A stretch of 64,000 nucleotides of DNA from positions 1 to 64,000 of the forward strand of contig JAJPJE010000070.1 in the NCBI GenBank assembly GCA_021324365.1, given 5' to 3'. Origin of the DNA: Terriglobia bacterium (lineage in GTDB: Bacteria > Acidobacteriota > Terriglobia > Terriglobales > Acidobacteriaceae). Shown piece by piece: positions 35,208-37,714 of this stretch (positions within the stretch are counted from its first letter, which is position 1; each line of letters starts with the position of its first letter). The position numbers and the translations under genes were made by a program. The notes under the pieces were generated by a model. That model was given only the letters and a program-made list of their open reading frames with translations, did no database searches and was not told the origin of the DNA.

Positions 35208-36806
35208 TCACTGCTTTTCCCGGGGAATATTGTCCTCGCCGGGATGTTTGTCGTGCGCTGTCACTTCACTCTCGTCTGCACTCGGAGCATCTTCTACGCT
35301 GCTCATCGTGATGCCTTCTGTCGTCTGCTCGCGTTCGAGCAGGTCTTCGGTATCGGGATGCGGAACTGCCTCCACTCCCGTCGCATCATCCGCCTGCGGA
35401 TCACCCGTGGGCTGTCCTTCTACCGGATTTTCTCCGGCATCGAGCGGCGCCACGTTCAATTCCTCACCACCTGGTTCGCCGGCTGGCTGATCTTCAGGCC
35501 CTTGGAAATCGGGACCGCCACCTTCTCCGGCTTCAAGGCTGGAAAAGTAATTATTGACCGCAATACTGATTTTTTCCACCGTCTTCGGGCCAATGCCCGG
35601 AATTGCTTCCAATTGCTCCGGCGTCATGTCCGCCAGCGCCTCCACCGAGGTCACACCGGCTTCGTTCAGCTTCTCGATTACACCCTCGCCCAGGTCCGGA
35701 ACACTCTCCAGAGGAGTCGTCACATTCGTGACCAGTTGCGACATTGCCTGTTCCACTTCCTGCCGCTTTTCCTCTTCACTCTTGATGTCAATCTTCCAGC
35801 CCAGCAGCTTCGCCGCAAGGCGAACGTTTTGACCCTTCTTCCCGATGGCCAGCGATAGCTGGCTGTCATCAACGATCACTTCCAAATGCTTAAGCGCCGG
35901 ATCAATGATCGTCACCCGGCTCACCTTCGCAGGCTGCAAAGCTTTTTCCGCGAACGTCTGTGGATCTTCGTGGTACTCGATAATGTCGATCTTCTCGCCA
36001 CGCAACTCGCGAATGATCGACTGCACGCGCATGCCTTTCATGCCGACGCAAGCGCCCACTGGATCGACATCCTTGTCTTTCGACATGACTGCGATCTTCG
36101 TACGCTCACCGGCTTCTCGGGCCGTCGCACGAATCTGCACCGTGCCGTCATAGATCTCCGGCACTTCCGTTTGAAACAGGTTCTGTACCAATTCCGGAGC
36201 CGCACGCGAGACGACCACCTGCGGACCTTTGGAAGCCTTTTCTACGCGCACGATCACCACACGAACACGCTCGCCGGGCGCAAACGACTCCAGCCGCGAC
36301 TGCTCCTTCTTCGGCATGCGCGACTCGGCTTTGCCCAGATCGAAAATGTAATCCTGGCCTTCCACTCGCTTCACCGTGGCGTTGACGATCTCCCCGACGC
36401 GGTTGATGTACTCACCATAGACTGTGTCACGCTCGGCCTCGCGCACTTTCTGGAAGATCACCTGCTTCGCCAATTGCGCCGCAATTCGCCCCAGAACGTC
36501 CGTGGCTTTGGGGATGTGAACCTCGCCGCCAATCTCAGCACCTTTATCAATCTTTTGTGCGTCAACCAGAGAGATCTGCGTCAACGGATCCTGCACTGCC
36601 TCCGGACCATCGACGATGGTCTTCACTGCGAATGCGCGGATTTGCCCTGTGTCTTTGTCGAGCACCGCACGTAGATTCTCCTGCGTCTTGTAGTACTTGC
36701 GCGTAGCGACAACAATCGCGTCTTCCACCGCGCTGACCACAATCTGCGGATCGATTCCCTTTTCCCGGCTGATCGCGTCTATCGTGTTATAAAGCTCACT
36801 TGCCAT
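35208..36806 (-). CDS. nusA: Transcription factor NusA with long acidic tail, 532 aa
   Basis: Binds RNA polymerase and affects pausing, termination and antitermination. N-terminal domain about 1-130 (ASELYNTIDAISREKGIDPQ), S1 domain about 135-200, two KH domains about 230-350 (GACVGMKGMRVQSIIRELRG, LAIGKKGQNVRLAAKLLGWK), then a helix-hairpin-helix region about 365-420 (MTPEQLEAIPGIGPKTVEKI). The last 110 residues are an acidic, Glu/Asp/Pro/Gly-rich tail with no known fold, an extension beyond the usual bacterial protein. As an RNA-binding factor it is a candidate to control the terminator in its own operon leader. Confidence 0.96.
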   Translation of the reverse strand: MASELYNTIDAISREKGIDPQIVVSAVEDAIVVATRKYYKTQENLRAVLDKDTGQIRAFAVKTIVDGPEAVQDPLTQISLVDAQKIDKGAEIGGEVHIPKATDVLGRIAAQLAKQVIFQKVREAERDTVYGEYINRVGEIVNATVKRVEGQDYIFDLGKAESRMPKKEQSRLESFAPGERVRVVIVRVEKASKGPQVVVSRAAPELVQNLFQTEVPEIYDGTVQIRATAREAGERTKIAVMSKDKDVDPVGACVGMKGMRVQSIIRELRGEKIDIIEYHEDPQTFAEKALQPAKVSRVTIIDPALKHLEVIVDDSQLSLAIGKKGQNVRLAAKLLGWKIDIKSEEEKRQEVEQAMSQLVTNVTTPLESVPDLGEGVIEKLNEAGVTSVEALADMTPEQLEAIPGIGPKTVEKISIAVNNYFSSLEAGEGGGPDFQGPEDQPAGEPGGEELNVAPLDAGENPVEGQPTGDPQADDATGVEAVPHPDTEDLLEREQTTEGITMSSVEDAPSADESEVTAHDKHPGEDNIPREKQ

Positions 36807-36884: not shown

Positions 36885-37391
36885 TTAAATTTCCGGCACC
36901 AAATTCGCTTTGGCCACATTCTTCAGCTCAATCGTGACCTTCGTGCCGGCAACCTGTTCCTTCTGTTTCTTTTTTGCCTTCTTGCTCCCGGCTGTTTCCA
37001 ATTCCAGCGTCACCCTGCCGTCAGCGAACTCGTTCAGTCTTCCGCGGAAGTTGCGGTTACCCTCAACCGGCTCATACGTCGTAACCTTAATCAAGCTTCC
37101 CTTGAACCGCTCATAATCTGCGGGCTTGCTCAGCTTCCGATCCAGTCCCGGTGACGATACTTCCAGCAGGTACGAATCGCCTGGAATCAAATCTTCCATA
37201 TCCAGGATGGTGCCCACTTCGCGGCTCACGCTCTCGCAATCCTGGTGTGTCACCCCGCCCGGTTTGTCGATGAAGAGCCTGAGCATACGAGCCTTGCCTC
37301 CGCCCAGAAACTCCAAGTCCACCAACTCCAGGCCGCTGGACGCGGTGACCCTCTCCGCAACTCGCCTGACTTGCTCCAGATCTAAGGCCAT
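36885..37391 (-). CDS. rimP: Ribosome maturation factor RimP, 168 aa
   Basis: A 30S assembly factor. Family blocks: LEQVRRVAERVTASSGLELV, MLRLFIDKPGGVTHQDCESV, YLLEVSSPGLDRKLSKPADY, and the F-x-G-R-L segment of the C-terminal SH3-like domain. A Lys-rich insertion (GSKKAKKKQKEQ) lies in the C-terminal domain. I use ATG 37391; a longer TTG start at 37445 adds 18 non-conserved residues. No clear ribosome binding site is seen. First gene of the operon, behind a roughly 300-nt leader with an intrinsic terminator. Confidence 0.94.
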   Translation of the reverse strand: MALDLEQVRRVAERVTASSGLELVDLEFLGGGKARMLRLFIDKPGGVTHQDCESVSREVGTILDMEDLIPGDSYLLEVSSPGLDRKLSKPADYERFKGSLIKVTTYEPVEGNRNFRGRLNEFADGRVTLELETAGSKKAKKKQKEQVAGTKVTIELKNVAKANLVPEI

Positions 37392-37460
37392 ATCGTACTT
37401 GTAAAATGATGACCCGCCACCCGCGGCGGAAGGACCGAAAGACAATCGACTTTCAGCTCA

Positions 37461-37484
37461 AATAAAAAGTGGGCTCGCGCCCAC
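37461..37484 (-). terminator. Intrinsic terminator in the leader of rimP-nusA-infB
   Basis: Minus strand: GTGGGC, loop GCGA, GCCCAC, then TTTTTATT. A perfect 6-bp GC-rich stem with U-tract. No minus-strand gene lies between it and the promoter at 37714, so it can only act on the operon's own leader transcript. This suggests attenuation. Confidence 0.75.
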
Positions 37485-37686
37485 TGGGTTGCTTCGCCGA
37501 AGCTGACCTGGGGATACCGGACCAGCCCGCTATCCGGATGGCAAAGAGCCTCGCGACTGCTCTCTTCGCCGCTGCTCACATGCAGCTATACCTGTTAGAT
37601 GATACCGCCGAAAAGGGGAAAACACAAACCGCAACACCTGCCCAATCAATTGGATGCAGGGCCGGCCGATTGGGTTCAAGTATATG

Positions 37687-37714
37687 ATTTTATTGGTCCC
37701 AGTTTACGACTCAA
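37687..37714 (-). promoter_or_regulatory. Promoter of the rimP-nusA-infB operon
   Basis: Minus strand: TTGAGT (37714-37709), 16-nt spacer, TAAAAT (37692-37687). Transcription would start near 37680, giving a leader of about 290 nt. Confidence 0.5.

Follow-up and report, generated by a model that had tools for sequence, protein, structure and literature searches.

A conserved intrinsic terminator in the rimP-nusA-infB leader of Acidobacteriota, a member of the rimP-leader set that probably acts in NusA feedback

The leader of the rimP-nusA-infB operon of a Terriglobia bacterium contains an intrinsic terminator that, as judged by comparison of sequences, is real and deeply conserved. It is part of the operon's own leader, and its conservation supports it as a candidate attenuator. 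The element is by its sequence a member of the known rimP-leader set and not a new kind, and we consider it rather likely to be an acidobacterial rimP-leader through which NusA feeds back on its own genes, i.e., a promoter-proximal intrinsic terminator of rimP-nusA-infB-rbfA. In the window (the whole stretch of 64,000 nucleotides that was analysed), the operon is read from the minus strand in the order rimP (ATG at 37391), nusA, infB, a small ORF, and rbfA (Table 1). A sequence-only reading of this DNA had proposed a complete intrinsic terminator, GTGGGC-GCGA-GCCCAC with a T-run, about 70 nt before rimP; it is present as written, hairpin and T-run together occupying 37485-37460 of the minus strand, with 68 nt between the end of the T-run at 37460 and the start codon. 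The accompanying statement that there is no other gene for it to serve is borne out. The intergenic stretch ahead of rimP also serves a divergent plus-strand ORF starting at about 37757, which had no match in the NCBIfam search and which we take to be an acyltransferase, and because this neighbour is divergent, no upstream minus-strand gene requires a terminator. The best promoter also lies mostly close before the stem in relatives, and a terminator of an upstream gene is thus ruled out. A second GC-rich hairpin (TCCGCCG-CGGG-TGGCGGG, 37430-37413), with a poor T-run, lies between the terminator and rimP.

Table 1. Features of the operon and its leader, in window coordinates.
Feature	Position	Strand	Basis
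rimP, 168 aa, first gene of the operon	36885..37391	-	RimP_N and DUF150_C above cut-off; NCBIfam RimP models below cut-offs
nusA, 532 aa, proposed regulator	35208..36806	-	TIGR01953, NusA_N, KH domains
infB, 995 aa	32115..35102	-	TIGR00487
rbfA, 120 aa	31159..31521	-	TIGR00082
-35 box TTGTGT, promoter common to relatives	37622..37627	-	17-nt spacer; score 10.4, second best in window
-10 box TATCAT, promoter common to relatives	37599..37604	-	same context in relatives
TTGAGT-N16-TAAAAT, promoter of the sequence-only reading	37687..37714	-	top score in window, 13.2 against 10.4 for the shared site
Secondary box GGCGAA before the stem	37493..37498	-	box enriched in relatives against shuffles
Terminator hairpin AGTGGGC-GCGA-GCCCACT	37468..37485	-	sequence; conservation; covariance-model match
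Interrupted T-run TTTTATTT after the stem	37460..37467	-	sequence

Taken alone, the sequence proves nothing, because promoter and terminator patterns are no commoner here than in shuffles: between 28000 and 42000 there are 16 terminator-like sites where 14.7 are expected, and four promoter-like sites where 5.0 are expected. The terminator is significant because it is conserved, upstream of 133 of 135 acidobacterial rimP genes and in 76 of 98 nusA regions of Dehalococcoidia, against 0 of 1960 shuffles (which preserve single-base composition only). So as not to select by the hairpin, we took the rimP genes by Pfam PF02576, which gave 135 genes in 133 of 150 acidobacterial genomes, with upstream regions of up to ~800 nt; over the RimP searches of these genomes and of the phylum taken together, two cases with RimP_N below cut-off (G112:C485 and G286:C17) were left out, and split RimP matches of one gene were counted as one. 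The sequence-only reading had staked its proposal on conservation of the stem before rimP in relatives, and the stem, GTGGGC-loop-GCCC with a T-run, is kept in all but two regions: L108 has a paired variant, GTCGGC-GCGA-GCCGGC, with a T-rich tail, and the region upstream of rimP in L092 has no such hairpin. Among the 128 regions scored in detail, for which GGGC-GCCC was the selection rule, the bases preceding GGGC are GT in every case, the loop is 4-6 nt long and of the GNRA type in 107, and the tail after the stem is AC-T5-6, then one variable base and TT. With TTT included, the exact pattern is present at 127 sites in 120 of the 150 genomes, against 15 for the reversed pattern; 120 of these sites are at rimP, usually as the genome's sole exact copy. 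Of the remaining seven, two repeat rimP sites as palindromes, three are found elsewhere, and two are in genomes lacking a RimP match. When the 341-nt leader was compared with the 150 genomes (its own included) by BLASTN, 83 had matches, and the alignments were restricted to the terminator stretch (query 213-275) save for the window itself and about five rows. That stretch lies on the same strand, before rimP, in all 29 relatives fetched (L002-L030), which were picked by their BLASTN match to the leader and are all among the 135 rimP genes. Two genomes, G018 and G083, have two rimP genes each, on separate contigs and each with its own hairpin, a pairing that may be read as duplication or contamination.

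A covariance search in Acidobacteria, proposed in the sequence-only reading, agreed with it in most genomes but not in all. The model, built from 71 hairpins, was run on 119 Acidobacteriota genomes alongside a RimP search of the same genomes, and in 74 of the 102 that bear rimP a match preceded the RimP domain by 22-300 nt. The match at rimP is the genome's best in 72 of the 78 genomes having any match, the 46 strongest matches are all at rimP, and those away from it (52 of 126) are mostly weak. In the window's genome the sole match at E<=0.1 is the one at 37457-37487 (E 6.2e-5). The remaining 28 rimP-bearing genomes had no match at rimP at E 0.1 or better, in a phylum-wide search whose stricter filters lose weak matches; the element is therefore common, though either not universal or at times not recognisable. 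In one genome of family f22 (G352, Acidobacteriota), the model has 13 matches in 2.3 Mb and none at rimP, and these hairpins are perhaps a general terminator or repeat.

Naville & Gautheret 2010 (PMC2965389) present the rimP-leader terminator as the most ubiquitous attenuator, found in the majority of species, and describe it as a GGGc...gCCC stem with a U-stretch 4-130 nt before rimP-nusA-infB, with no larger conserved element. Because the motif is that widespread, the window element belongs to this set and is not a separate counterpart. The likeness is fourfold: 1) an intrinsic terminator in the rimP-nusA-infB leader, recognised by sequence only; 2) a GGGC-GCCC stem followed by a U-stretch (AGTGGGC-GCGA-GCCCACT-TTTTATTT); 3) a position within the same range of distances from rimP; and 4) the absence of a larger conserved element, since BLASTN against the 150 genomes aligns chiefly the terminator, though a short upstream box is enriched. 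It differs from the published description in that the conserved acidobacterial stretch extends further ([A/G]GTGGGC...GCCCAC-T5-6, then one variable base and TT, mostly with GNRA loops) and in that the hairpin also stands before nusA without rimP, in Dehalococcoidia. The known Rfam leader is ruled out for the window: RF01770, a 102-position model titled gammaproteobacterial rimP leader, has the same gene position but among 16 sources matched E. coli only, and in the window it had no match at the gathering score and none at E<=10. The earlier attribution of the rimP-leader attenuator to alphaproteobacteria was thus too narrow, the Rfam family being gammaproteobacterial and the motif present in the majority of species; the proposed acidobacterial counterpart holds as a conserved terminator in the operon's own leader, but as a member of the known set and not as something separate.

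Regulated leaders of this kind are known elsewhere. In B. subtilis, according to a 2025 review (PMC12288461) citing Mondal et al. 2016, NusA stimulates termination in its own leader and is autoregulated in this way; both cases have intrinsic termination in the 5' leader of NusA's genes, which was established by experiment there and is inferred here. PMC4448216 reports, from RNA-seq, termination 31 nt after the start site in S. agalactiae gbs0413-0418, before rimP-nusA-IF2-rbfA. This leader resembles the promoter-proximal acidobacterial forms, by description and not by sequence, and that of the window is longer. In E. coli, two terminators precede rimP in the corresponding operon, and NusA controls its own expression (PMC6511841); the sequence-only reading had likewise named E. 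coli NusA as a regulator of its own operon.

The same stem is found in other phyla. We scanned one genome per species for the exact stem, a search that selects by stem letters and shows the positions of sites, not their frequency among genomes, and obtained at least 130 exact sites in at least 119 stretches. Among the matches listed (130 sites), 80 lie 4-175 nt before rimP, four before nusA without rimP between (L193, L219, L231, and L241, all Chloroflexi or Dehalococcoidia records), and 46 before neither; eight of these listed 46 are within 220 nt of the end of their stretch, and both strands of 10 palindromic places enter the count. The first 80 loci of the scan gave 54 rimP, one nusA, and 30 neither cases, and the rimP cases belong by record title to Acidobacteriota, alpha-, beta-, gamma-, and deltaproteobacteria, Nitrospira, and Marinimicrobia. 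The terminator that adjoins rimP in E. coli K-12 reads GGGC-TTTAG-GCCC-T7. In the Oscillospiraceae MAG SIG642 (L142, L195), GTGGGC-GTT-GCCCAC with a T-run occurs three times with no rimP found after it, two copies being in similar context; a further locus of this genome, L217, is among the matches listed.

We aligned 71 hairpins, hand-picked for spread; the Dehalococcoidia and other-phylum rows had been found by their stem letters, so the invariant columns are partly so by construction. Letters vary with pairing kept at the two ends of the stem, in the outermost pair (A-U, G-U, C-G, G-C) and in the pair that closes the loop (C-G, U-G, A-U, U-A). Both partners have changed in eight cells, where shuffles give 1.3. 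Pairs with two-sided changes number two, against 1.0 in shuffles, which is not above them (114 of 500 shuffles reach two). Four G-C pairs are fixed and the U-A pair is nearly so, such that GTGGG and CCCAC hardly vary in this alignment, and the same letters recur where genes were selected by their protein (133 of 135 for rimP and 76 of 98 for nusA). The spacing of the arms does vary, GTGGG and CCCAC being 4-8 nt apart among the matches listed in the species scan, and together with the T-run on the transcript side this would fit an RNA terminator whose stem something also reads. NusA-stimulated termination is not known to require a stem of fixed letters, which weighs against NusA feedback. A terminator of fixed strength, unregulated and merely setting the basal ratio of leader to operon transcript, is unlikely though it deserves some weight: no antiterminator is visible, and the MFE and centroid folds of the leader both retain the terminator stem. 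Its letters should then drift with the pairs kept, whereas the central five pairs hardly vary from Acidobacteriota to Dehalococcoidia and proteobacteria (in a set partly chosen by letters), and the counterparts in B. subtilis and E. coli are reported as regulated (PMC12288461, PMC6511841).

Genomes without RimP separate the two proteins that might act on the hairpin. Control of the operon through the hairpin by RimP itself, or by a 30S-assembly signal that RimP conveys, is improbable, even though rimP is the first gene and Naville & Gautheret (PMC2965389), while favouring NusA as the regulator, mention RimP feedback as a hypothesis. Profile searches of 98 Dehalococcoidia genomes found RimP_N in none, DUF150_C in none, and NusA_N in all 98 (each domain was found in 10 of 14 control genomes). 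The strict form of the hairpin, GTGGG-N3-9-CCCAC with a T-run, stands nonetheless upstream of nusA in 76 of the 98; hence the element does not need RimP. In L193, for instance, the order is an upstream ORF (presumably prolyl-tRNA synthetase), the hairpin, and nusA, with no rimP between. The exact hairpin occurs in 11 of the 98 genomes, in nine of them directly before nusA, and the Dehalococcoidia tail, TTTTTT[G/A/T]-TT, is similar to the acidobacterial one. Judged by eye, about 13 further genomes deviate by a wobble, by one changed pair, or by the weakness of the T-run. The nine nusA regions that do not fit include one with a paired GTCGGC form and a clade of seven. Seven related nusA leaders (L347-L352 and L355) lack the hairpin and have another conserved stretch of ~45 nt soon after a TATAGT -10 box, with GGATGTCGGGTGGGGGTCGGGCTGCCCTGTCTGATCCTGCG inside it in five of the seven; this stretch is possibly a replacement control element. 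Among Acidobacteriota, 17 of the 119 genomes have no RimP match, and 14 of these have a nusA locus; one locus with 17 nt of upstream sequence and two masked ones (L375 among them) are not assessable. No hairpin with T-run was found before nusA in any of the 11 assessable cases, which shows that the hairpin does not always follow nusA and also counts in favour of control by RimP. The presence of the hairpin before nusA where RimP was not detected suggests, on the other hand, that NusA throttles its own genes. We found no statement of the element before nusA in RimP-less bacteria in a literature search mostly outside subscription journals, which is weak evidence of absence.

The promoter TTGAGT-N16-TAAAAT (37714-37687) of the sequence-only reading is present and has the top score, but relatives favour another site as the promoter of the operon. 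Our scoring matrix holds approximate E. coli-type sigma-70 frequencies. In the long leaders of 13 relatives, compared by eye, TTGTNTTTT stands at the -35 position in eight (L003, L005, L017, L039, L052, L058, L099, and L113) and GTATCAT at the -10 position in eight (L003, L005, L007, L039, L048, L052, L099, and L113). The counterpart of TTGTNTTTT...GTATCAT in the window is 37627-37599, and the common form in the window's family is TTGTCT-N17-TATNNT. This shared site, TTGTGT-N17-TATCAT, is therefore taken as the probable main promoter, with a predicted start near 37592, and the other one is possibly a second promoter. From the main promoter the leader before the hairpin would measure ~108 nt, and the ~290 nt proposed earlier are not borne out. 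By the matrix scan, 95 of the 128 regions (the window being one of the 128) have their best promoter 11-59 nt ahead of the stem, while in shuffles it spread evenly. The best -10 box is at most 35 nt (11-35) before the stem in 53 of them, and in 12 it is merely 11-14 nt before GTGGGC; in these the transcript should start almost at the hairpin, which leaves a sensing leader no room.

A signal-sensing leader upstream of the stem (riboswitch-like, ribosome-mediated, or an antiterminator) that decides read-through is about as improbable as control by RimP. The window's group does have ~108 nt before the stem with helices predicted in it, a GGCGAA box that recurs before the stem, and a further short stretch common to relatives of the same family. 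Of the 128 regions, 99 have a box GGCG[AGC], GTCG[CGA]A, or TCGAA in the 28 nt ahead of the stem, a count inflated by kinship, against a mean of 22.6 (sd 4.2, maximum 35) in shuffles preserving single-base composition only. Yet BLASTN of the whole leader aligns the terminator stretch only, with about five exceptions, and the short distances between -10 box and stem speak against such a leader. Several possible helices, as claimed earlier, are indeed predicted, but the folding energies are nothing unusual, with z -0.86 over 311 nt and z -1.32 over the 138-nt leader, and given this and the BLASTN result a large folded aptamer was rejected. A leader peptide read through the hairpin was also rejected: ATG-AGT-GGG can be read at the stem in some relatives, but as loops have either 4 or 5 nt, any frame is shifted between relatives and none is common to them. 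Finally, a role of the inverted repeat as a DNA operator, or in translation rather than termination, is very improbable. It is a near-perfect palindrome near the promoter in many relatives, but 123 of 128 regions have the T-run on the transcript side and none has an A-run on the opposite side, the spacing of the arms varies in loops and species scan alike, and G-U and compensatory variants preserve RNA pairing.

NusA feedback thus appears to be the likeliest mechanism for the hairpin. RNA polymerase would start near 37592 and make ~108 nt before the hairpin, AGUGGGC-GCGA-GCCCACU, and its imperfect U-run form. With free NusA plentiful, pausing and hairpin folding would be stimulated and most transcripts would end before rimP; with NusA short, polymerase would read through and the operon would be expressed. 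We infer both termination in this organism and NusA as its driver, and the conserved GUGGG/CCCAC letters would be read by NusA-bound polymerase. This account is supported by the conservation at rimP in Acidobacteriota, the retention before nusA in RimP-less Dehalococcoidia, the stem letters that hardly vary while the end pairs do, and the reports on B. subtilis, S. agalactiae, and E. coli. Several observations are counted against it. First, all 11 assessable RimP-less Acidobacteriota are without the hairpin. Second, 28 of 102 rimP-bearing genomes have no model match there, and 52 of 126 model matches are elsewhere. Third, 46 of the 130 exact sites among the matches listed precede neither gene. 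Fourth, seven Dehalococcoidia nusA leaders have another conserved stretch, and a further upstream signal is possible in the window's long-leader group. The earlier proposal that NusA or a ribosomal signal decides read-through stands in so far as NusA is the most plausible partner; the long sensing leader that went with it is not supported, because of the 53 regions in which the best -10 box is so close to the stem.

A bolder reading, which we offer tentatively and with the balance against it, is that GUGGG...CCCAC-U6 might be an ancient, sequence-specific 'nusA box' of Acidobacteriota, Dehalococcoidia, Nitrospira, and proteobacteria, read by NusA-bound polymerase in the first ~30-130 nt of its own transcript. 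The name rimP-leader would then be a misnomer, since the element is retained ahead of nusA in the absence of RimP. The RimP-less class provides a natural experiment that parts NusA from RimP as the controller, a question left open by the 2010 description. A general elongation and termination factor may have controlled its own supply via the same few RNA bases across phyla.
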